This document shows positions 6,742 to 27,670 of a stretch of 33,998 bases of DNA, in pieces (position 1 is the first letter of the stretch; every line of letters begins with the position of its first letter). Source of the DNA: Mesorhizobium sp. (lineage in GTDB: Bacteria > Pseudomonadota > Alphaproteobacteria > Rhizobiales > Rhizobiaceae). The stretch spans positions 1 to 33,998 of the forward strand of contig NZ_SUEO01000042.1 of assembly GCF_004962925.1 (NCBI RefSeq). The letters run 5' to 3'. The notes below the pieces were generated by a model. It was not told where the DNA came from. It ran no database searches and was given only the letters and a program-made list of their open reading frames with translations. Made by a program: the position numbers and the translations under genes.

Positions 6742-6757
6742 TGCAAGAGCCATACCA
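6742..6757 (-). promoter_or_regulatory. Sigma-54 promoter of nifB
   Basis: On the minus strand it reads TGGTAT-GGCTC-TTGCA, with GG and GC exactly ten bases apart, as in -24/-12 promoters. The predicted start is near 6731, about 26 bases before the nifB ATG. Confidence 0.88.
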
Positions 6758-6828
6758 ACTTAAAAAAGCGGCTTCAGTTCACTATTTGGGTCGATGTCGG
6801 GTTGTGTGAGGCCGGCGCGACACAATTT

Positions 6829-6844
6829 TGTCCTGCTTGCGACA
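6829..6844. promoter_or_regulatory. NifA upstream activator site of nifB
   Basis: TGT-CCTGCTTGCG-ACA is a perfect TGT-N10-ACA NifA site, centred about 105 bp upstream of the predicted nifB transcription start. That is the usual distance for DNA looping to the sigma-54 promoter. Confidence 0.85.
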
Positions 6845-12426: not shown

Positions 12427-12442
12427 TGCATCGTTCATGCCA
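12427..12442 (-). promoter_or_regulatory. Sigma-54 promoter of fixABCX
   Basis: On the minus strand it reads TGGCAT-GAACG-ATGCA, with the GG-N10-GC spacing exact. The predicted start near 12415 leaves a leader of about 45 bases before fixA. Confidence 0.82.
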
Positions 12443-12512
12443 AGTCTTCTGCCTGCCTCTATTCCAGAAGGTGGCTTCGTTTGCTTCCGAGGAGCGTCAT
12501 GAGGACTGGATT

Positions 12513-12528
12513 TGTCGACTTCTCGACA
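12513..12528. promoter_or_regulatory. NifA upstream activator site of fixABCX
   Basis: TGT-CGACTTCTCG-ACA is a perfect TGT-N10-ACA site centred about 105 bp upstream of the predicted fixA transcription start, the same distance as at nifB. Confidence 0.85.
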
Positions 12529-15033: not shown

Positions 15034-15049
15034 CGCATGGACCGTGCCA
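15034..15049 (-). promoter_or_regulatory. Sigma-54 promoter of iscN-nifS-nifW
   Basis: On the minus strand it reads TGGCAC-GGTCC-ATGCG, with correct GG-N10-GC spacing. It is 42 bases before the iscN ATG. Upstream there is no perfect TGT-N10-ACA, only a TGT-N12-ACA at 15144-15161 and a hairpin CCGACA-CTTAC-TGTCGG at 15124-15140, so the NifA site is uncertain. Confidence 0.82.
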
Positions 15050-15244
15050 AAGGGAAGACGTGTCAAAAACCGTAGGACATCCCGACGTCTCTTATGCTCG
15101 ATTGCTGGGGAGACGTCCGACAACCGACACTTACTGTCGGGTTTGTCGCGTCCGCGTCACAGGAAGGGCGCCTGAGTTCGCGATGCACTCACGCGTAAAG
15201 CAATGAACAGAGCCAAAGATGTTCAGAGCTTGCCGCGGAGCAAC

Positions 15245-16874: not shown

Positions 16875-18107
16875 TCAGGTTTTGCGGTTCGGGCCGAGCA
16901 AAAATACTGTCAAGACAGCGAGGAACGTAGCAACCGCGCTGTAGACAAAGACACTGGCAATACCCGTGTGATCCACCAATAGGCCACCGAAAGTTGTGCC
17001 GGCTGCGATGGCCACTTGGAAGGTTATGACCATCAGTACACCAGCGCTCTCGGCCTGTTTCGGAGCGGCGCGTAGCACCATCCATGTCTGCAATCCGACC
17101 GGGACCGCGCCAAAAGCAAAGCCCCATACGGCAACTGCAATTGCCGAGGTCAAGGCCGATGCTCCCATAGTCAGGAGCGAGACAGCGGCTACGGCAATGA
17201 GCAGGGGCGGCAGGGCCGCGACCGCCTTGAGACTGTGTTTGGTGAGGAATGCGCCGGCTAAATTGCCGAAGACGCCGGCCGTGCCAAAAGCAAGGAACAC
17301 GAGCGGGATCGACTTCTTGCCGAGCGCAGGAACGCTCTCGAGAAAGGCGCGGATGTAGGCGAAGCTGGCAAAATGGCCGGAAGCGACCAATAGCACGACT
17401 AGCACCGCAACCTTCATCGCCGGATTCTTCGCGACGTCCAGCGGACTGCGGAATCTGCGCACTTCGATCGGAGGCAGTGGCGGAATGGTTACGAGTTGCA
17501 CGAGCAGCGCAACGGCACTCACGATTGCGGCGACCTTGAACGAGGCTCGCCATCCCCAAATGTCACCGACATAAGCGCCGATTGGAGCCGCGCAGACGGA
17601 GGCGACAGAAACGCCGGTGAGGATGATCGACATGGCGCGCGGCATGAGGTGACTTGGAACCAGCCGCATCGCCAACGCTGCCGAAATTGACCAAAAACCA
17701 CCAAGCGATATGCCAAGGACGACGCGTGCCGCCAGCAAAACCGGCAGCGACCCCGCAACCTCCGCCAGAACGTTCGACAGGATCAGCAGGAGCGTCATCG
17801 CCCAGATGACGACCCTGCGGTCCAGACGCTTTGTCACGATGGCGATTATCGGTGCCGAGATCGCCGCGACGATTGCGGTCGCTGTTAGCGCCTGTCCAGC
17901 CGTGCCCGTGGTGATACGGAGATCATGCGCGAGCGGTGTCAGAACGCTGGCGGGCAGAAACTCTGCCGTCACAAGCCCGAAGGTGCCGAAGGAAAGCGAA
18001 ATGATGGCACCCCATGCAGGGCCAGAACGTTGATAGGGACTTTCTGGGTCAAGCCGATCTCGGTCGAACAAAGCCGCGTCCACTAAATCTGTCGCCGATT
18101 CGGTCAT
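16875..18107 (-). CDS. MFS transporter, DHA1-type efflux pump
   Basis: A 410-residue inner-membrane protein of the major facilitator superfamily with about 12 hydrophobic segments. The start SLSFGTFGLVTAEFLPASVLTPLAHDLRIT followed by AGQALTATAIVAAISAPIIA is typical of the DHA1 group that includes AraJ, SotB and purine-efflux pumps. Motif A appears as TKRLDRRVVI, and LLAARVVLGISLGGFWS matches the motif-C side of TM5. The substrate cannot be read from the sequence. GGAGAAC lies nine bases before ATG 18107. It is convergent with hmuS. An orphan sigma-54 promoter 600 bases upstream points toward it. Confidence 0.88.
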   Translation of the reverse strand: MTESATDLVDAALFDRDRLDPESPYQRSGPAWGAIISLSFGTFGLVTAEFLPASVLTPLAHDLRITTGTAGQALTATAIVAAISAPIIAIVTKRLDRRVVIWAMTLLLILSNVLAEVAGSLPVLLAARVVLGISLGGFWSISAALAMRLVPSHLMPRAMSIILTGVSVASVCAAPIGAYVGDIWGWRASFKVAAIVSAVALLVQLVTIPPLPPIEVRRFRSPLDVAKNPAMKVAVLVVLLVASGHFASFAYIRAFLESVPALGKKSIPLVFLAFGTAGVFGNLAGAFLTKHSLKAVAALPPLLIAVAAVSLLTMGASALTSAIAVAVWGFAFGAVPVGLQTWMVLRAAPKQAESAGVLMVITFQVAIAAGTTFGGLLVDHTGIASVFVYSAVATFLAVLTVFLLGPNRKT

Positions 18108-18438
18108 GAATGAGTTCTCCGGCTAGGAGCTGTTGCAGCAGGGGTGGCTACATCGCCGGGGATCAAAGCCGCGAGACCTTCCGGCGGCGGCCAGTCGGCA
18201 TCAGTCGAGGCCTCGGCGCCCGACGCATCCGAGGCCTCATCGGAGGGCCGACGGACCCAACCGTCGACAATGCGGGAGAGTTCTCGGCGCGGTCGCATCG
18301 ATCGCATTCGTCGAAGTGCGGCCTGTTCACTGCGAACCAAGCAAGCCGAACGCGGTGTCCTCGATCGAGGCCTTGATGGGGGGATGATCGACGATCTCTA
18401 TATTGCTTTGAAGCAGGAAGTTCCGTCGCCATATGTGG

Positions 18439-18552
18439 TTATCCTGGCAGCCAGAATTGAGCGGTTGTCGCAAGCACCAAGGCGGTCGCAATGAGTGCAA
18501 CGAGGCGGAAGTCTGATCGATGGCTGCGGTTCGATGGCCGCGCGATCGACAA
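18439..18552 (-). CDS. Possible 37-residue membrane peptide
   Basis: Read from a TTG at 18552, this frame gives a basic start (ARPSNRSHRSDFR) and one hydrophobic helix (LVALIATALVLATTAQFWLP), then TAA. This is the form of a small single-span membrane protein with its basic end inside. There is no clear ribosome site and the start codon is a guess. It lies about 140 bases downstream of the predicted start of the orphan sigma-54 promoter. Confidence 0.22.
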   Translation of the reverse strand: MSIARPSNRSHRSDFRLVALIATALVLATTAQFWLPG

Positions 18553-18703
18553 AATTGAGGTGATGAGTTATCCCTTTTGAAGCCGTTGCTCCCAATTTTG
18601 GGATAAGGTAATTGCAGGCGGTCCCAGCAACGTCGGGCGGCCTTTTTGGTGATCGAATTCATGGGACGACACTCTCGGTCCGTGACGCATCTGCGAATGA
18701 CTG

Positions 18704-18719
18704 CGCAAGTTCCGTGCCA
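18704..18719 (-). promoter_or_regulatory. Orphan consensus sigma-54 promoter
   Basis: On the minus strand it reads TGGCAC-GGAAC-TTGCG, the best sigma-54 match in the window. No perfect NifA site lies within 150 bp upstream. Its transcript would run through decayed DNA toward the MFS gene at 18107. Confidence 0.72.
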
Positions 18720-19361
18720 TCAACGACAAATCTGGCTCTGCTGAGCGGGTGGTGGAGGCACGAGCGTGGGCTATCCCAAGAGCTTGCCGCAAGGTTGTTC
18801 GAAGTTGAGGTGCCGGATAGACCGCAAATATGTCGGGCGGCCTGGGGTTGGCCAACACGAAGATGCGCAAGTTCAAAAGGACGAGCTGAACCCTTGCCGA
18901 TATCCGTCCGAGGCTGATCTGGAGAAGGTCAAGAACTGCGTCTTGAAGGCTTCCGCCGCACCGGCAAATGCGAACCCAAGGTGCTGGGCAAGATGGACAG
19001 GGCCATCCAACCCGTCGACTGGACGCTCATTAATGGCGTCGGTGTGGCTCTGTAGCTGGCGAGAAAAACGCCCTGCTGAAAGACAAAAGCTCGTGTGGCC
19101 GGCTCTGAAGGACGGCCAATGAGGCAGGCGAGGAGAGGCTATAGTCCATTCGTGTAGACTGATCTTGTCCCACGGAGGCGGCTAACCACCCCGCCAGACA
19201 TCATCGAGGGGAGCGCCACTAGGCTCACCCCAAGTGTTGGTCATTTCCACCTGGGTGACCTCGGCCAAGTCACCAAGCCGCTTAGCGCAAGCTTTCGAAC
19301 TGGATGCTCCCCGGGCACATGATCGGCTAGCGATCCCACCAGTTGAGTTGCTCCAAGTCGG

Positions 19362-19398
19362 TGTCTAGCTTTCTACATTCTGTGTCCGACGCTGGACA
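19362..19398. promoter_or_regulatory. Two tandem NifA sites of the P450 operon
   Basis: TGT-CTAGCTTTCT-ACA at 19362-19377 and TGT-CCGACGCTGG-ACA at 19383-19398 are both perfect TGT-N10-ACA sites. Their centres are 21 bp apart, two helical turns, so two NifA dimers would sit on the same face. They lie about 138 and 117 bp before the predicted start. Confidence 0.87.
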
Positions 19399-19481
19399 AG
19401 AATGTTGCAATCCCGACCAGCAAGTCAGCGCAGGCGCCACCTGCTGCCCAGCAAACAGCAAGGATTATCGAAAGACGAATT

Positions 19482-19497
19482 CGGCACGGAGCTTGCA
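19482..19497 (+). promoter_or_regulatory. Sigma-54 promoter of the P450 operon
   Basis: CGGCAC-GGAGC-TTGCA has GG-N10-GC spacing and a full TTGCA -12 box. The predicted start is near 19508, practically at the first ATG of the P450. Confidence 0.82.
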
Positions 19498-19508
19498 CCA
19501 ACGATTGC

Positions 19509-20774
19509 ATGCAAATGCCGACAGCATCTCATGAACGGTCTCTCGATTCTGGCGCGGTTAAATCGCGGCCGGTTCCAGATCATGTCCCGCCCGAAATGGT
19601 GAGGGACTTCAGCCTGTTTACGTCGCCCGGCATGTTGCCGACCGCTAACGGGGATCCGCATGCAGCGGTTGCTTGCGTTCATGCCGGGCCTCCGATCTTT
19701 TATTCAACCAGCAACACGCGCGACGGTCGGGGTACCTGGGTCATCACTCGCGCGAGCGACCAGCGCCGGGTGCTGCAGGACACCGAAACGTTTTCCAGCC
19801 ATCGCAGCATCTTCGCCTCTGTGCTCGGCGAGAGCTGGCCGATGATCCCGCTTGAGCTCGATCCGCCATTCCACGGTGTTTTTCGCTCACTGCTCAATCC
19901 GCTGCTTTCGCCAAAGCGGGTAATGGCATTGGAGCCGGCTGTCCGGGAACGAGCGATCAAGCTGATCGACAGGATCGCCGCATCAGGCACGAGCTGCGAC
20001 ATCATGAAGGATTTTGCAGTTCCGTTCGCGGTCAATATCTTCCTTCGCTTTATTGGGCTTTCGGACAACGGACTAGAAACATTTGTCGGCTGGGCTAGAG
20101 ATCTGCTCCACGGCGATAAGGAGCAACGACCACCCGCAGCCCGGACGATCGTGGCCTTCATCGACGAACTTGCCACCGAGCGCCGCAAGGAGCCGGTCGA
20201 TGATTTCATGACCTTCATCGTGAAGGCAAAGGTCGAGGGTCGTCTGCTCAGTGACGAAGAAGTCCGTGGCATCGGCGTGCTTGTGTTCGTCGCGGGACTC
20301 GACACGGTCTCAGCAGCCATATGCTTCGACTTGGCCCATCTCGCGCGCAACCCCAAAGATCAGGAATTGCTACGAAGCGAACCGGACCGGATTGCCGTCG
20401 CTGCGGAAGAATTGCTGCGCGCCTATTCGACCATTCAGATGATCCGAGTGGCAACGAAGGATGTCGACTTCAAAGGCGCGCCGATCCGCAAGGGAGACTA
20501 TGTTTCCTGTGCCACGATGATTGCCAATCGTGACCCGGCGGAATTCGAATGCCCGAATGAGATCGATCTGGCGCGCGAGGACAACCGGCACGCTGCCTTT
20601 GGCTATGGTCCCCATCGTTGTCTTGGCTCACACCTTGCCCGGCGGGAGATTGTCATTGGCCTGGAGGAGTGGCTGGCGCGCATCCCAGCCTTTCGGATCA
20701 AGACAGGGACTGAACCTATCACCTTCGGCGGCCATGTGTTCGGGATCGAGAATCTGATCCTGGACTGGTCCTGA
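19509..20774 (+). CDS. Cytochrome P450 (symbiotic, CYP127-like)
   Basis: A soluble bacterial P450 of up to 421 residues. The heme loop is [17 protein letters not shown] with the cysteine ligand at about 371. The I-helix oxygen motif is VAGLDTV and the K-helix ExxR motif is EELLR. Members insert oxygen into small molecules using ferredoxin electrons; the next gene encodes such a ferredoxin. P450s of the CYP127 type are known on rhizobial symbiotic plasmids and islands, but the exact subfamily is from memory. The start is uncertain: ATG 19509 or 19515 would make the mRNA nearly leaderless, while ATG 19596 would remove the conserved VPDHVPPE block. It is the first gene of a NifA-controlled operon. 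Confidence 0.9.
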
Positions 20775-20803
20775 AGTTTCAGCCAACGACATTGGAGTTC
20801 GCT

Positions 20804-21652
20804 ATGCGTGTCGTCGTACATAAAGCCAGATGCCAGGGTCATGCGCGCTGCTGGGCGCGGGCGCCGAGAGTCTTCAAGCTTGATGACGCCGGCTACATCT
20901 TGCCCGGTGATATTGATGTTGCCGATGGGGAGCAACTGCTTGCCTCAAAAGGGGTACGAGCCTGCCCCGAACAAGCTCTGGAAGTTGACGAGCCCCCCGC
21001 TAACTCAGTTGTAGAGAGAGACACACGCAAAGTGCAGACTGGCATCGGGAAGGACAAAACAATCATACAATTCGCGACAGACCCTGTCGACCACGCGAAA
21101 CTTACCGAACTGCGTGACCGAGAGGCGATCCGCAACTGCCTGTATCGGTACTGCCGCGGGATAGACCGCGCCGATGAGGCGGCGCTGCGTAGCGCATACT
21201 GGCCCGAAGCGTATGACAGGCACGGTCCCTATTGCGGACCGGCAGAGGACTTCATCCAATTTGCTCTCGGTCTGCCGGGGCACCGTAACATCCATCAAAT
21301 CACGAACAGCCTGATCGACTTCATCAGTTCAGCAGAGGCCGCGGTCGAGAGCTATTTCACCGCGCTGCAACGCGGACCGGATACAGACCAAGAAATACGT
21401 CAGACGCTGCTTTGCGGCCGTTACTGCGATCTGTTTCAGAAGAGGCAGGACGAGTGGCGAATTGCGGAACGGACAGTCGTCTACGATTGGGTTGAGGAGC
21501 AAATCCCGCCAGCGATTCTTGAGGCAGATAGGTTCGGCCAGCGACAGCCGATTGGAGCACCACATCCAGACGATCCCATCTACCAGTTGCTCAAGGGTCA
21601 CATCCCCACCGACCAAGATGGCGTCGAGGGTCCCCAACTGGGAGCTGCATAA
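20804..21652 (+). CDS. [3Fe-4S]-type ferredoxin fused to a SnoaL-like domain
   Basis: Residues 1-65 form a P450-type ferredoxin: [21 protein letters not shown], later VRACPEQAL. Three cysteines plus a histidine at the usual fourth-ligand place indicate a [3Fe-4S] or His-ligated cluster. After a linker, residues 90-260 ([41 protein letters not shown]) match the SnoaL/NTF2-like fold used by small cyclases, dehydratases and ring-hydroxylase beta subunits. The first part should carry electrons to the P450 30 bases upstream; the second may bind or transform the product. I chose ATG 20804, six bases after GGAG; a TTG at 20792 overlaps that site. Such a fusion is unusual. Confidence 0.82.
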
Positions 21653-21800
21653 GTGGGTAGAAATGGAGGATGAGCGCCTTACGGGAACGACATCTGTGTG
21701 GGGCCGCAACTGGCGGTCACTGCAACGATTTGGCTCGACCCTTCATTCCGCCCAAGGTTGATGGGCTGAGATCACAAGCGGTCATCGTGGAGAAGCTCTC

Positions 21801-23402
21801 GTGAAACTGGCAGCACGCACCGTAATCATCACAGGCGCTGCGGGCGGGATCGGCCGTGCCCTGGTCGATATCCTTGCCGCGGACGGAGACACTGTAGTTG
21901 CGGTGGACCTTCCGGGCAGTGGTGTGGTTGAACTGGCTCGGGATCTCGGGTCGCCGCACGTCGGTCTGGAGTGCGATGTGTCGCGAGAGAAGGACATGCT
22001 CTCACTTTTCGGCCAGGTCGAAGCACGGTTCGCGCAAATCGATGTCCTCATCAACAATGCGGCGGTTGGGCCCACGATGGATAGGATCATCGACACCGCT
22101 GTCGATACCTTCCGACGCGGCGTGACAGTGAACCTTATTGGGCCATTCGTTATGGCCCGGGAAGCGGCGCGGCGCATGAGGCCTGGCGGTGCGATCGTCA
22201 ATGTGGCTTCGATGGCGGGCGTGGTCGGCAATCCCAGGCGCAACGCCTACGCAGCCTCGAAAGCTGGCGTGATCTCGTTGACAAAGTCCCTTGCATGCGA
22301 GTGGGCTATGCGAGGAATCCGCGTCACGGCGGTGGCGCCGGGCTCCGTCCGCACCCCAATGGTCACAGAACTGGCACGCGCTGGCAAAATGGACCTCGCG
22401 GCGATACGCCGCCGCGTGCCGATGGGGCGCTTGGCTCGCCCCGACGAGATCGCCAGGGTCGTGCGTTTTCTGAGCAGCACGCAGGCGCGCTACATCACCG
22501 GCTCGGTGCTGGCAGTCGACGGAGGCTGGATGTCATTCAACCAGCCGGGGGATGCTCACCCGCCGGTGGATGGTGCGCTCCAAGCCGAGCTCTCCTGTCC
22601 GGCCGAATGCACAGATGCGCGAATCGTGCTCGTCACCGGTGGCGCAAAAGGCATTGGCGCGGCCGTCGCTCGCCGCTTTGCCGCCAACGGCGACACCGTC
22701 GTGATTGCTGATAAAGATGGCACTGCAGCGGCAGAGCTGGCTACATCGCTCCCCGGCAAGCATCTGGCGAAATCGCTGGACGTGGCCGTCGAGAGCGATG
22801 TGGTGTCGATGTTCGAAGAACTGAGGCGACGCTTCGGGTATATCGATGTTCTGGTCAATAGTGCTGATACCGCCGACAGGATTGTGCCTGCGATCGAGCA
22901 ACTGTCGAACCAGCTCGAACACGTCCTGGATGTCAACCTTACCGGCGCCTTCACCTGCGCGCGCGAAGCGATCAAGGCTATGCGCCCGGGCGGCGTGATC
23001 CTCAATCTCGGGTCGATCGACAGCTTTCTGCCGTTCGCGCCGCGCCATGCCTACGGCGCCTCCAAGGCGGGGATGGATATGCTGACCCGTTGCATGGCGG
23101 CCGAACTCGGCCCGGTCGGAATTCGGACAGCCACCGTCGCTCCTGGCCACATCCGCACGCCCGCACTTGCTCAGTTGGCCAAAGCCGGCCGCATCGACCT
23201 GGCAGCAATCGGACGACGCATCCCCATGGGCAGGATGGGACGGCCAGAAGACGTCGCAGATGCATCGTTCTTCCTTGCTTCGTCTGACGCCTCATATATC
23301 AACGGCTCGATCCTCTACGTGGACGGCGGCTGGACCTCGTTCGGTGATGCGGGAAACGCCAGCGAACTCTATGACGAATGTTTTGCGGAGGCCGCAGGTT
23401 AA
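21801..23402 (+). CDS. Tandem short-chain dehydrogenase/reductase (two SDR domains)
   Basis: A 533-residue protein made of two complete classical SDR domains joined by a linker of about 25 residues. Domain 1 (about 1-250) has TGAAGGIG for NAD(P), NNAAVG, a catalytic serine in VASMAG and YAASK. Domain 2 (about 272-520) has TGGAKGIG, NSADT, a serine in LGSIDS and YGASK. Both active sites look complete, and both halves end with the same type of text (TGSVLAVDGGWMSF; NGSILYVDGGWTSF), so they arose by duplication. They likely oxidise or reduce alcohols made by the P450. The GTG start at 21801 follows GGAG; the gap to the ferredoxin gene is 148 bases. Confidence 0.9.
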   Translation: MKLAARTVIITGAAGGIGRALVDILAADGDTVVAVDLPGSGVVELARDLGSPHVGLECDVSREKDMLSLFGQVEARFAQIDVLINNAAVGPTMDRIIDTAVDTFRRGVTVNLIGPFVMAREAARRMRPGGAIVNVASMAGVVGNPRRNAYAASKAGVISLTKSLACEWAMRGIRVTAVAPGSVRTPMVTELARAGKMDLAAIRRRVPMGRLARPDEIARVVRFLSSTQARYITGSVLAVDGGWMSFNQPGDAHPPVDGALQAELSCPAECTDARIVLVTGGAKGIGAAVARRFAANGDTVVIADKDGTAAAELATSLPGKHLAKSLDVAVESDVVSMFEELRRRFGYIDVLVNSADTADRIVPAIEQLSNQLEHVLDVNLTGAFTCAREAIKAMRPGGVILNLGSIDSFLPFAPRHAYGASKAGMDMLTRCMAAELGPVGIRTATVAPGHIRTPALAQLAKAGRIDLAAIGRRIPMGRMGRPEDVADASFFLASSDASYINGSILYVDGGWTSFGDAGNASELYDECFAEAAG

Positions 23403-23540
23403 TTGCCAGGCATTCGCAGGGCGACCGGCCGAGCATTATGAAGCCTCGGCTCCACGACGCACCCGAGGTGCTTGAGATCCAAGCCTGCGCATGCGGAGCA
23501 CATTCCCGGTCGGCTGACGTGTCTATAACGAGGAGAAATC

Positions 23541-24593
23541 ATGGAATTTGCCACTTTCATTCTGGCCGCCCAGCGCGGCTATCACCAATCCTCAGAAAGC
23601 GTCATCCGCAACTCCATCGAACAGGCCGTCGCTTCGGAGCAGGCTGGGTTCAACACCGCGTGGTTTGCTGAGCACCACTTCAACAATTACAGCCTCATAC
23701 CATCCCCGCTGATGATGGTGGCGCACTGCGCCGGCTTGACAAGCACGATTCGCCTGGGCACTGCCGTCTGCGTGCTGCCGCTTTACCAACCGCAGCGCCT
23801 GCTGTCCGAGATCGGCTTCGCCGACATCGTTGCGAACGGCCGTCTCGAGCTCGGCGTAGGCTTGGGATACCAGCAGTTCGAGTTCGAACGGTTCGGCGTG
23901 GACATCGATGAGGCGCCGGCCGTCTTTTCGGAATACCTGGACATCATTCTCAAGGGCCTCAACCAAAACGTCTTCGAACACGACGGCCAGTATGAGAAGA
24001 TCCCCCCAACAGCGATTTCGGTCCGCACAGTCCAGCAGCCGACGCCGCCTATCTGGATCGCTGGCGGAGCCGCACGGATGGCTCGGGCCTACCGCGAGGG
24101 GCACAATTTTTTTGTCACAGCCTTCCACGACGGCTTAGAGACTTTGACCACACTGCGTGAATCAGTCGAGAGGGCGGCGGCATCCGAGGAAAAGAACGTC
24201 ACCGACGTCAAGATATCGCTGCTGCGCTGCTGCTATGCCAGCCACGACGAGTTGGAGATCAACAGCTATCTCGACAATGCCCGCTTCCAGCGCCGGCTTT
24301 CTGAAGCCCTGCATCAGCGCCGCCAACAGAGCCACGATGGCTACCTGCTGCAGGAGACACCGACCCAGCAGGATCTGTCCTTCGAGACCATGCGCAAAAA
24401 TTTGCCGATTGGCAGCGTAAATCGCGTGATTGATCGCCTGCTGGAAGAGATCGATATCTTGAAACCGGACCAGATCGCAGTTCAGACTCAATTGGGCGAC
24501 TTCGACCAAAAGACGATGCTGCGCCAGATCGAGCTCTGGGGCGACAAGATCATCCCTGCGGTCAACAAGGCGCTTTGTCATGCCGGAAGCTGA
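23541..24593 (+). CDS. Luciferase-like flavin monooxygenase
   Basis: A 350-residue LLM-class flavin-dependent oxidoreductase with a TIM-barrel fold. Typical blocks are NTAWFAEHHFNNYSLIPSPLMM, STIRLGTAVCVLPLYQP, IVANGRLELGVGLGYQQFEFERFGV and PTPPIWIAGGAARMA. Such enzymes use reduced FMN and oxygen to oxidise small molecules. AGGAG precedes ATG 23541. It follows the double SDR by 138 bases and overlaps nifQ by 14, so it belongs to the same transcript. The substrate is unknown; it is a second oxygenase of the P450 pathway. Confidence 0.88.
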   Translation: MEFATFILAAQRGYHQSSESVIRNSIEQAVASEQAGFNTAWFAEHHFNNYSLIPSPLMMVAHCAGLTSTIRLGTAVCVLPLYQPQRLLSEIGFADIVANGRLELGVGLGYQQFEFERFGVDIDEAPAVFSEYLDIILKGLNQNVFEHDGQYEKIPPTAISVRTVQQPTPPIWIAGGAARMARAYREGHNFFVTAFHDGLETLTTLRESVERAAASEEKNVTDVKISLLRCCYASHDELEINSYLDNARFQRRLSEALHQRRQQSHDGYLLQETPTQQDLSFETMRKNLPIGSVNRVIDRLLEEIDILKPDQIAVQTQLGDFDQKTMLRQIELWGDKIIPAVNKALCHAGS

Positions 24594-25206
24594 AGCCGGC
24601 CGTTACGATGATGGCTGCCTATCCAGCGCGCAATGGCGTGGGTCCGAGCTAGGGAGGAGCTTCGATCAGCATGTGCTGCCCTGCGTACATTCACGTTCGC
24701 TTGAGGAGGTCCAGGCGGGCGAGGTGTTGGCGACGGAGGGGACAGGCCTTTCGTCTGTCGAATTGCGTGATGTCTTGGCCGCAACTTTCCCGTCTACCTC
24801 CAGCAGCGTATTCGCTTTGGAGGAGTTGAGCGAGCCCGAGCCGGAACTGGAAGAGGAGCTGCTACGCCGGCTGCTGCTAGCGCATGCTGCGCCGGCCGAC
24901 CCGGCGAGCGCCCGCTTGGCCAAGATCATCGCCCGGCGTGCGATGCGCATGGACCATCTTTGGCGGGATCTTGGCCTCTCAAATCGCGCTGAGCTCAGCC
25001 GCCTGCTTGCCAGACATTTTCCCGCGCTGGCGGCAGGCAACACAGAAAACATGAAATGGAAAAAGTACTTTTACCGCAAGCTGTGTGAGGCCGAAGGCTT
25101 TTCGTCATGCACAGCACCCAGTTGCGGGGAATGCCATGACTTCGAAAGCTGCTTCGGCCCGGAGGAAGTTGAGAGTCGCCTCTCGCCGACCACGAATGTC
25201 GGTTAG
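24580..25206 (+). CDS. nifQ: NifQ, molybdenum donor for FeMo-cofactor
   Basis: A 208-residue NifQ, which carries a Mo-Fe-S cluster and gives molybdenum to NifEN/NifH during cofactor synthesis. The C-terminal block MKWKKYFYRKLCEAEGFSSC is family-typical, and the metal motif C-X4-C-X2-C-X5-C is complete in CTAPSCGECHDFESC. MRMDHLWRDLGLSNRAELSRLL is the usual middle part. The N-terminal 40 residues are poorly conserved, so the true start may be later. It overlaps the monooxygenase by 14 bases and ends four bases into the 3' end of the convergent rpoN. Confidence 0.92.
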   Translation: MPEAEAGRYDDGCLSSAQWRGSELGRSFDQHVLPCVHSRSLEEVQAGEVLATEGTGLSSVELRDVLAATFPSTSSSVFALEELSEPEPELEEELLRRLLLAHAAPADPASARLAKIIARRAMRMDHLWRDLGLSNRAELSRLLARHFPALAAGNTENMKWKKYFYRKLCEAEGFSSCTAPSCGECHDFESCFGPEEVESRLSPTTNVG

Positions 25207-26636
25207 TCACTTCGCTTGATCGCAACTGCGGACAAACGCTTTTCGCGGCGCCGTCGTATGGAGGAAGGGATGTTCATCGCCTCGCGATATTTGGTGACGG
25301 TACGGCGAGCGACATCGATGCCGGTCTCCTTGAGTTTAGCAACGATGTCTTCGTCGGAATGTACCTTGTCGAGCGATTCTTCGGCTATGATTGCCTTGAT
25401 CCGATGGCGGACAGCTTTGGCGGAGTGCGCGTCGCCGCCCTCGCAGGATGCGATTGGCGCAGCGAAAAAATACTTCAGCTCGAACACCCCGCGCGGAGTC
25501 AACATGTACCTGTTCGAAGTCACCCGGCTTACCGTCGACTCGTGCATGCCGATCTCGTCAGCGACATTTTTGAGACAGAGAGGCCGCAGATGGGCGGCGC
25601 CGTGTGTAAAAAAGGCATCCTGCTGGCGCACGATTTCGGTCGCAACCTTAAGGATCGTCTTAGCGCGCTGCTTGAGACTGCTGATCAGCCAGTTCCCTTT
25701 TTCCTGGCAATGGTCGAGAAACGCTTTGCCTTCCGGATTTTGATTGGTCAGCTGCGAGATTTCGGCGATATAGGTGTGGTTGATCAACACTTTGGGCAGC
25801 GTGGCCGGATCAAGCTCCACCCGCCATCCACCTTCGGACTTGGGCATTACCCAGACGTCCGGTACGATGGTTTCCGGCGTCCCGGACTGGAACCGGTCTC
25901 CAGGCTTGGGATCGAGCGCGCGGATTTCGTTCCTCATGTCGAGGAGATCCTCCTCGTCGACTCCGCAACGCTGCTTCAATCCCTGAAAATCCCCCCGTGC
26001 AAGCATCTCGAGATTGGCGACCAAAGCTGCCATAGCCGGGTCGAACCGGTCTTGCTGGCGCAGCTGAATCTCCAGGCATTCGCTGAGAGTTCGCGCAAAA
26101 ATCCCCGGCGGATCAAATTGCTGCAAGATTCCGATGACCCGTTCCACATCAGCTTGCCGAACGTTTAACCTCCTGGCCAGATCGAAAAGGTTTACCTGAA
26201 GATAGCCAGTGTCCTCCAGATGGGCGGCGAGCTGTCCGGCAATCAGCCGCTCCTGGGGGGTGAACGGGGTGAGGGCGACTTGGCGGGCGACATGGTCGTG
26301 CAATGTTTCGGTGTGGGCGGTAAACTCCTCGACGGCAGGTCGATCGTTGCCGCTACTGCGTTGCGACTTCCATTGCCCGCGCCCGCCAGACGGCCCGCCA
26401 ATGGGCGATTCGCCGATTTCGCTTCTGCTTTGACTGCTCCGCTGATCCTCCCCTGGCAGCGGCGAAACGTCGTCAAACGGGTCAGGCTTCAAAACGGGGT
26501 TCTTCTCGAGTGCCTGCTCCACGAGCTGATGGAGTTCAGTATGCGTCAATCGCAGCAAGCGAATAGCTTCAATGGCTTGAGGCGATAAGACCATACGTTG
26601 CTTCTGGCGTTGAAGCAGGCTTGCTGAGAGATGCAT
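25203..26636 (-). CDS. rpoN: RNA polymerase sigma-54 factor RpoN
   Basis: A 477-residue sigma-54. Region I is glutamine- and leucine-rich (SLLQRQKQRMVLSPQAIEAIRLLRLTHTELHQLVEQAL), followed by an acidic/glycine-rich region II. The core-binding and DNA-binding parts end with the RpoN box ARRTVTKYRE at about 443-452. It directs polymerase to the -24/-12 promoters seen all over this window. An island rpoN (rpoN2) beside a peroxiredoxin gene is known in R. etli, and in M. loti the island copy is the one needed for fixation. The gene is 69 bases after prxS; no strong ribosome site is seen at ATG 26636, so coupling or a different start is possible. Confidence 0.96.
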   Translation of the reverse strand: MHLSASLLQRQKQRMVLSPQAIEAIRLLRLTHTELHQLVEQALEKNPVLKPDPFDDVSPLPGEDQRSSQSRSEIGESPIGGPSGGRGQWKSQRSSGNDRPAVEEFTAHTETLHDHVARQVALTPFTPQERLIAGQLAAHLEDTGYLQVNLFDLARRLNVRQADVERVIGILQQFDPPGIFARTLSECLEIQLRQQDRFDPAMAALVANLEMLARGDFQGLKQRCGVDEEDLLDMRNEIRALDPKPGDRFQSGTPETIVPDVWVMPKSEGGWRVELDPATLPKVLINHTYIAEISQLTNQNPEGKAFLDHCQEKGNWLISSLKQRAKTILKVATEIVRQQDAFFTHGAAHLRPLCLKNVADEIGMHESTVSRVTSNRYMLTPRGVFELKYFFAAPIASCEGGDAHSAKAVRHRIKAIIAEESLDKVHSDEDIVAKLKETGIDVARRTVTKYREAMNIPSSIRRRREKRLSAVAIKRSD

Positions 26637-27509: not shown

Positions 27510-27525
27510 CGCAAGCGCCATGCCA
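27510..27525 (-). promoter_or_regulatory. Sigma-54 promoter of prxS-rpoN
   Basis: On the minus strand it reads TGGCAT-GGCGC-TTGCG, with correct GG-N10-GC spacing. It gives prxS-rpoN a leader of about 260 bases. Confidence 0.85.
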
Positions 27526-27654
27526 ATTGACCCGATGCCTTGGGTTCACTTCGGTTTTTGCAGCAACTTTCGTGTTGTGCAGTAATGCCGGTCGATATTA
27601 TTGCTCAAGCAGCACTGGAAATTGGGTGCGACTCCGTTCGGCAAACCCGGCCTT

Positions 27655-27670
27655 TGTCCGAAGCCGGACA
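27655..27670. promoter_or_regulatory. NifA site of prxS-rpoN
   Basis: TGT-CCGAAGCCGG-ACA is a perfect TGT-N10-ACA, centred about 163 bp before the predicted start. With the promoter it makes rpoN a NifA target, so sigma-54 and NifA reinforce each other. Confidence 0.82.

Follow-up and report, generated by a model that had tools for sequence, protein, structure and literature searches.

The window analysed here is a stretch of 33,998 nucleotides (nt) of Mesorhizobium sp. (assembly GCF_004962925.1, contig NZ_SUEO01000042.1, positions 1 to 33,998 of the forward strand), and the present work concerns an operon at 19,362-25,206 within it. Two tandem perfect sites for the activator NifA and a sigma-54 promoter stand ahead of five co-directional genes, which code for a P450, a ferredoxin-SnoaL fusion, a double short-chain dehydrogenase/reductase (SDR), a luciferase-like monooxygenase (LLM) and NifQ. 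This layout had been proposed from the letters alone (the sequence-only reading); sequence scans confirmed the control sites, open reading frames (ORFs) and Pfam domains confirmed the five genes, and the domain content agrees with the redox set then claimed, namely two oxygenases, a ferredoxin, SDR and a SnoaL domain. The parts of the operon are as follows.

19362-19377, forward strand: NifA upstream activator site (UAS) 1, TGTCTAGCTTTCTACA, a perfect TGT-N10-ACA
19383-19398, forward strand: NifA upstream activator site 2, TGTCCGACGCTGGACA, a perfect TGT-N10-ACA
19481-19497, forward strand: sigma-54 -24/-12 promoter, TCGGCACGGAGCTTGCA, with a site of the same kind in relatives
19509-20774, forward strand: P450 gene, PF00067
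20792-21652, forward strand: ferredoxin-SnoaL fusion in one frame of 286 amino acids, PF13459 (Fer4_15) and PF13577 (SnoaL_4); the CxxHxxC...CP ferredoxin covers about residues 1-70 and the SnoaL_4/NTF2-fold domain about residues 98-270
21653-21800, forward strand: gap between SnoaL and SDR, the position of a flavin reductase in the related cluster described below; about 21683-21727 resembles a reductase end by eye only
21801-23402, forward strand: double SDR with two SDR domains and catalytic motifs in both halves; PRK06484 at 722.5 bits, cut-off 713
23541-24593, forward strand: LLM, a flavin-dependent monooxygenase, PF00296 (Bac_luciferase)
24580-25206, forward strand: nifQ, PF04891 (NifQ)

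The P450 has the AGLDT acid-alcohol pair of the I helix, the ExxR motif and the haem cysteine loop, as a functional class I P450 should. In the ferredoxin half CQGHARC is followed later by CP, which we take to be the pattern of the three-cysteine P450 ferredoxins, and P450-linked ferredoxins are the closest chains to it. The TGxxxGxG and Ser-Tyr-Lys motifs are present in each half of the SDR. No core synthase was found within the operon. Since 14 nt are common to the end of the LLM frame and the nifQ frame read from ATG 24580, co-transcription is plausible and nifQ probably rides on the shared transcript; the NifQ domain begins only at residue 45. The locus was compared with 80 GTDB loci (the best 80 of 119), of which 27 are near-copies of the window. 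The earlier placing of nifQ as the last gene holds here and fails as a general rule: among the 53 less similar loci, nifQ follows the P450 in 25, precedes it in 16 and was not found within the stretch in 12.

The sigma-54 site begins 119 nt and 98 nt past the starts of NifA sites 1 and 2. Perfect TGT-N10-ACA sequences occur 8 times in the window against a mean of 4.11 expected, and when the window was shuffled 300 times with its dinucleotide content kept, a single shuffle gave a pair of UAS and -24/-12 element as good as that of the operon (-24/-12 score of at least 23 by our own scoring weights, 70-150 nt downstream of the UAS). Such a pair, at a score of at least 21, lies within 700 nt upstream of the P450 in 71 of the 80 loci, where 0.06 are expected from Markov shuffles; when near-identical upstream stretches were grouped it was present in 27 of 34 groups. 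In most other loci some 90-570 nt separate the promoter from the matched P450 start; in the clade of the window it stands 28 nt ahead of the longest frame. The position rule, as we apply it, would put +1 at about 19507, and because this leaves almost no leader before ATG 19509, the ATG at 19515 or 19596 may be the true start of the P450.

Other signals were also searched for. The GG..GC at 19394 was ruled out as a promoter by its 11-base spacer (GG-N11-GC), and two other forward-strand sigma-54-like sequences (20623 and 22654) fall within genes, without a UAS. No sigma-70-like site was found on the forward strand of 19000-25400, the three terminator-like sites in the same interval are not above the shuffles (5.0), and an Rfam scan of 18000-25400 gave no match.

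Control by NifA, as the sequence-only reading had it, is well supported by the sequence of the operon and has been measured for its orthologue msi332 of M. loti R7A (Sullivan et al. 2013, PMC3538637), the only paper on msi332 found in the literature, by which open-licence PMC papers are meant throughout. That paper lists a promoter before 'nifQ frag, msi332-331', and in its Table 4 the msi332::lacZ fusion reaches 446.6 Miller units in nodules of R7A, against 273.5 when nifA1 is missing and 14.6 when nifA2 is missing. The fusion strain retained an intact msi332, hence no knock-out phenotype comes from it. The R7A locus is thus alike in having a P450 and a ferredoxin behind a NifA/RpoN promoter that is NifA2-dependent in nodules, and it differs in that a nifQ fragment lies upstream, the intact nifQ is located elsewhere without a NifA promoter, and the table lists only the P450 and the ferredoxin.

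Similar P450 clusters had been said to exist in other rhizobia, and the 80 loci together with the counterparts of R7A and of Sinorhizobium fredii NGR234 bear this out. The cluster NGR_RS30330-30305 of pNGR234a, presumably the y4v genes, has the P450, NTF2/SnoaL, SDR and LLM in the same order with nifQ nearby; unlike the operon it has nifQ and a dicarboxylate symporter gene first and nifH after. The symporter gene of NGR234 (4632-6125 of L001) lies between nifQ and the P450. The P450 is 74-86% identical to other rhizobial copies, with 74% to NGR234 and 83% to the M. loti-type copy; more than 40% identity is the naming rule for a CYP family. From its relatedness to the genes of M. loti and NGR234 it is a putative CYP127-type P450, the family name being that used in PMC8197338. 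Its closest solved chains by sequence are the camphor P450s, and a table entry of the 2021 survey (PMC8197338) lists CYP127A3 of M. loti as a testosterone hydroxylase.

At 99-100% P450 identity there are 27 GTDB records, of which 26 are titled Mesorhizobium (M. mediterraneum and M. muleiense included) and one 'Bacterium M00'. These two species and the strain code Ca are assumed by us to denote chickpea symbionts. The window is a Mesorhizobium symbiosis island, probably of the chickpea type, the chickpea lineage being read from the record names. Among 394 genomes of the family the P450 (E <=1e-90) was found in 16, nifH (E <=1e-100) in 23 and both in 14 (Fisher P 5e-18); 22 of the 23 nifH matches are above the family cut-off and that of G257 is partial. 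In a plasmid collection, among the matches listed (60 of 229), the P450 identity is 54-87% in rhizobia and at most 40% elsewhere, and within these matches the group looks confined to symbiotic rhizobia. The 40% relative in Croceicoccus has further oxygenase genes as neighbours and offered no clear clue.

The SnoaL-SDR-LLM part has relatives outside symbiosis. Relatives of the SnoaL part, about 57-70% identical, occur at places without an adjoining P450 and mostly in genomes without the P450. Of all places with SnoaL relatives, 16 stretches were fetched, and 12 of them were non-operon. Eleven of the 12 share one arrangement, in which genes for IclR, an SDR, an ATP-binding cassette (ABC) binding protein, the lactonase-type protein SMP-30, a coenzyme A (CoA) ligase of the ATP-grasp type, SnoaL, a flavin reductase and a double SDR are found; 9 of these 11 have a LIV-type permease, 7 have an LLM of the operon type and 6 have a further, only distantly related LLM. 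The greedy ORF calls used for neighbourhoods include spurious frames. Six of the 11 clusters are on contigs of more than 3.8 Mb, from which 'chromosomal' is read. The gene content suggests that this mostly chromosomal cluster is catabolic and serves uptake and breakdown of a small organic compound. Genome G064 (L049; L014/L064) holds both this cluster and the symbiotic operon and is a good strain for comparison.

SnoaL, double SDR and LLM are orthologous and have the same order and direction in the operon and in the non-symbiotic cluster of Rhizobiaceae-type genomes, the symbiotic order being that of the cluster (SnoaL, flavin reductase, SDR, LLM) minus the reductase. The two differ in that the cluster has no P450 or ferredoxin and carries importer, regulator, lactonase-type, CoA-ligase and flavin reductase genes; by Pfam content, CoA ligase, SMP-30, importer and flavin reductase are absent between 19362 and 25206. 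In trees built from the fetched loci (with a length limit and >40% identity), the symbiotic rows group with the remnants in a single clade each time, with support of 95/80 for LLM, of 100/100 for the double SDR (midpoint root) and of 94/90 for SnoaL, the last value falling under the star level of the tool, and the symbiotic LLM clade is nested among non-symbiotic rows relative to two outgroup rows. Relics of the flavin reductase were detected by tblastn in 6 of 71 symbiotic SnoaL-SDR gaps at E <1e-5, with E-values, computed over this small set of gaps, of 5e-14 (L132), 3e-11 (L110), 7e-9 (L111), 2e-8 (L104 and L140) and 2e-6 (L102). The simplest history of these sequences would be a single capture of SnoaL-reductase-SDR-LLM behind the P450-ferredoxin and the NifA promoter, followed by decay of the reductase.

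A similar set on a Pseudosulfitobacter plasmid has a flavin monooxygenase (PF00743) replacing the double SDR. Judged by the usual Baeyer-Villiger fingerprint patterns, this monooxygenase has one fingerprint, GGVWYWNRYPGARCD, and the other is without its histidine. The Pseudosulfitobacter and Variovorax neighbourhoods were considered as a key to the substrate and found to be suggestive, not decisive.

The SnoaL domain aligns with LinA (E 0.00074). The structure model of the fusion is good only for the SnoaL part, where ten-residue blocks over residues 101-240 reach a predicted local distance difference test (pLDDT) score of 75-97, the ferredoxin part being below 50. Its best match is LinA (Z 18.9, 1.8 A over 140 residues), which confirms the NTF2 fold, and a scytalone-dehydratase-like structure (Z 17.9) and the bile-acid 7-alpha-dehydratase (Z 17.3) are near. 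All 39 rows have Asp125 and His168, which we take as the LinA-type catalytic dyad. In the clade of the window the SnoaL part lacks a few residues just before the stretch of the catalytic His, differs at usually conserved places and stands on a long branch of the tree (0.25); its activity there may have shifted.

The operon varies among symbiotic loci. Ferredoxin and SnoaL are in one frame in all 27 near-identical loci and in 4 of the 53 others (L134, L137, L139 and L146); in the rest they are split by stops or frame changes, or one was not found. A part counts as intact-looking here when its best tblastn match covers 85% or more of the query and has no stop. By this measure P450, ferredoxin, SnoaL, SDR and LLM look whole together in each of the 27 near-identical loci and in 27 of the 53 others; among the 53 stretches of this second group, 7 end within 4.5 kb of the P450. 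The ratio of nonsynonymous to synonymous substitution (dN/dS) between the genes of the window and other symbiotic copies, which is rough where dS is >1, is lowest for LLM (0.07-0.11), followed by P450 (0.13-0.21, intact copies), with 0.20-0.27 for SDR (broken L132 copy excluded), 0.09-0.34 for SnoaL, 0.09-0.41 for ferredoxin and 0.13-0.32 for nifQ; from these values the operon looks conserved by purifying selection. They bear on the explanation that the genes are the decaying remains of a catabolic operon under a NifA promoter, with no present use or with only nifQ useful. The flavin reductase was lost, many other rhizobia lack SDR and LLM or have copies that look broken, and according to PMC3538637 most NifA2-regulated genes of R7A beyond the well-known nif/fix genes are dispensable for fixation. 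Against such a leftover stand the low dN/dS of each gene, lowest in LLM, and the near-identical loci, in which the five enzyme parts look intact throughout, yet nifQ looks damaged in 2 of the 27 (L094 and L097). We consider this explanation decidedly unlikely.

A reduced form of the operon was found on four plasmids, two of S. meliloti (from Medicago lupulina) and two of R. leguminosarum (from Trifolium ambiguum and Galega). Frameshifts or truncation affect the P450 in these, SnoaL and LLM have open frames, there is no ferredoxin match, and a long SDR match is present in one only; two of the four (L003 and L057) keep the NifA-type site pair upstream. The R. tropici-type plasmid pRCCGE532b carries SnoaL with partly broken SDR and LLM and no P450. 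Since the reduced plasmid loci keep SnoaL and LLM, these two may be the core activity. The same four plasmids speak against the explanation that the P450 and LLM chiefly consume oxygen or balance redox and so protect nitrogenase, whatever the substrate, as they lost the P450 while SnoaL and LLM stayed open. NifA does govern both oxygenases, and a comparative study (PMC4999443) classes the NifA-controlled P450 (cpx) with other genes under adaptation to microoxia; a set of four enzymes with a dehydratase and a double SDR nevertheless suits a pathway better than a sink, and we regard adaptation to microoxia as the purpose of the operon as very unlikely.

Known systems were compared for the chemistry. 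In Pseudomonas, camphor is broken down by a P450 with its ferredoxin, a dehydrogenase and a luciferase-like oxygenase with a separate flavin reductase. The operon resembles this pathway on paper in its P450-ferredoxin, dehydrogenase and luciferase-like oxygenase; it differs in having no ferredoxin or flavin reductase and in adding a SnoaL dehydratase, and its LLM is only remotely like diketocamphane monooxygenase. The gibberellin pathway employs three P450s together with diterpene and prenyl synthases. With the rhizobial gibberellin operon the present one shares NifA-linked P450, ferredoxin and SDR genes in symbionts; set against the gene content of that operon (PMC3557214), it has one P450, not three, and no diterpene or prenyl synthase. 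The ifc cluster of Variovorax V35 is alike in the oxidative breakdown of a legume compound and is reported in some rhizobia (PMC11069340). It is unlike in that IfcA is an FAD-binding monooxygenase and IfcB of glyoxalase type, and the words 'SnoaL' and 'luciferase' do not appear in the main text of PMC11069340; the isoflavone cluster was rejected as the same system, as the Pfam content of the operon does not match the description given there for ifcA and ifcB.

These comparisons also concern biosynthetic tailoring, in which the enzymes would finish a signal or hormone whose skeleton comes from elsewhere in the cell or the plant, the product acting on the host. In the survey PMC8197338, CYP127 co-occurs in 10 species with the gibberellin P450s CYP112, CYP114 and CYP117 (and CYP173), which could point to hormone synthesis; the diterpenoid operon msi071-064 of R7A is likewise NifA-dependent (PMC3538637), and a divergent exporter gene adjoins the operon in part of Mesorhizobium. 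Against these points the operon has no core synthase, its SnoaL-SDR-LLM part is kin to a catabolic-looking cluster, and the five P450 places in the draft genome of the window lie on five contigs, none adjoining another (neighbours on C66 and C90 were scanned with Pfam, and those on C222 and C417 as ORF lists only). No three-P450 array was seen among these places and a gibberellin operon in this genome was rejected. Tailoring is in our view unlikely, and with no synthase in the operon and the P450 places scattered, it seems likelier that a compound is modified or removed than that one is synthesised de novo.

Our best explanation, held with moderate confidence, is that this NifA/sigma-54-driven operon oxidises a cyclic terpenoid- or steroid-like plant compound in nodules. 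The P450, fed by the ferredoxin, would hydroxylate a ring; the double SDR would convert alcohols to ketones; the LLM, drawing reduced flavin made elsewhere in the cell, would insert oxygen beside a ketone (Baeyer-Villiger type) or otherwise open the ring; and the SnoaL domain would eliminate water. Hydroxylation, ketone formation, ring oxygenation and dehydration are proposed because of the kinship with camphor P450s, the testosterone entry of CYP127A3, the fold like that of 7-alpha-dehydratase, and the flavin oxygenase, lactonase-type and CoA ligase genes of the related cluster. Regulation and kinship are the firm parts, and every chemical step is inferred. The sequence-only reading had favoured a plant-derived substrate, and so do we, because SnoaL, SDR and LLM are related to a catabolic-looking cluster with importer genes and no three-P450 array of the gibberellin type was seen. 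Its NifA control and redox set stand as well; its view that a product is made, in the biosynthetic sense, is less likely than modification or removal. Modification or removal of a host compound also appears likelier than nutrition, as importer, lactonase and CoA ligase genes are absent from the operon and the operon follows NifA. In R. leguminosarum bacteroids of bean nodules P450 genes, not necessarily those of this operon, are up 60- to 150-fold and were suggested to act on nodule compounds, according to PMC6421345.

Several observations weigh against oxidation of such a plant compound in nodules as we propose it. The pair of UAS and -24/-12 element is lacking within 700 nt in 9 of the 80 loci (L106, L107, L108, L120, L134, L135, L139, L143 and L146), of which L120 has little upstream sequence and L108 has its pair 1653 nt upstream. 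In NGR234 the pair is absent within 1800 nt of the P450, the region before nifQ being outside the scan, and no ferredoxin match was found at the place equivalent to that in the operon. The P450 occurs without nifH in 2 of 16 genomes (G029 and G194) and nifH without the P450 in 9 of 23. In the 53 less similar loci SDR looks intact in 29 and LLM in 35, the rest looking broken or not being found. The operon is without a flavin reductase and a ferredoxin reductase, and 44 of the 71 gaps, the 153-nt gap of the window included, gave no reductase relic by tblastn at E <=1. L048, one of the 12 places outside operons, does not have the cluster, although SnoaL is there and SMP-30 is matched weakly. The LLM reaction is the weakest link of the proposed chemistry because its profile search places it nearer to bacterial luciferase than to diketocamphane monooxygenase: luciferase alpha chains come first (6e-37) and 3,6-diketocamphane monooxygenase follows at 4e-11, so the LLM is not nearest to the diketocamphane monooxygenases as a type II Baeyer-Villiger enzyme would be, and its structure model (pLDDT 48.4) is too poor to use. 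In the literature no nodule substrate was found for the enzymes and no substrate for the related cluster. The rough dN/dS values, the SnoaL clade support and the co-occurrence of CYP127 with gibberellin P450s, given above, are to be counted on this side too.

A more detailed scenario is offered tentatively, as a possible though doubtful one. Rhizobia would have recruited the back half of a soil catabolic pathway for use in bacteroids alone, to render a host compound harmless or to take away a host hormone. A steroid/terpenoid-type P450 would have been placed in front and NifA control added, and the steps for import and energy yield would have been lost. Some of the symbionts of clover, Galega and Medicago would then have pared it to a SnoaL-LLM core, and in the chickpea type the fusion would couple electron supply and water elimination.

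Around the operon the following features were noted.

16875-18107, reverse strand: divergent transporter gene of the major facilitator superfamily (MFS), PF07690
18704-18720, reverse strand: strong sigma-54-like site facing the MFS gene, ATGGCACGGAACTTGCG, with no UAS-like sequence 60-200 nt upstream

The divergent MFS gene is present in 34 of the 88 loci screened, including 10 beyond the near-identical group (68-78% identity there), and it is a possible exporter for the pathway. In L051 the MFS gene adjoins rpoN2 instead of the P450 operon. On the reverse strand of the window a NifA site (27655-27670) and a sigma-54 site (27510-27526) stand ahead of prxS-rpoN2, and further pairs of a NifA site and a sigma-54 site are 12513-12528 with 12427-12443 (score 22.5) and 6829-6844 with 6742-6758 (score 22.0). 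For M. loti R7A, sites of this kind before prxS-rpoN2 are reported in PMC3538637, and the reverse-strand sequence at 15034-15050, TTGGCACGGTCCATGCG, is identical to the nifS-nifW promoter in its Table 1.

Known already are the genes, the P450 family, the regulation of the R7A copy by NifA and, for a relative, one activity in vitro. New, within the literature as defined above, are the link to the non-symbiotic cluster, for which no earlier report was found there, the relics of the reductase, the lineage-limited fusion, the reduced operon of the plasmids and the divergent MFS gene of part of Mesorhizobium. The operon spans nodule bacteria of several genera, and in nodules of M. loti NifA drives expression of the first gene. 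The fused and the reduced versions reveal which parts are dispensable, and the kinship gives a handle on the function, as a compound consumed by free-living carriers of the related cluster would point to the substrate in bacteroids.

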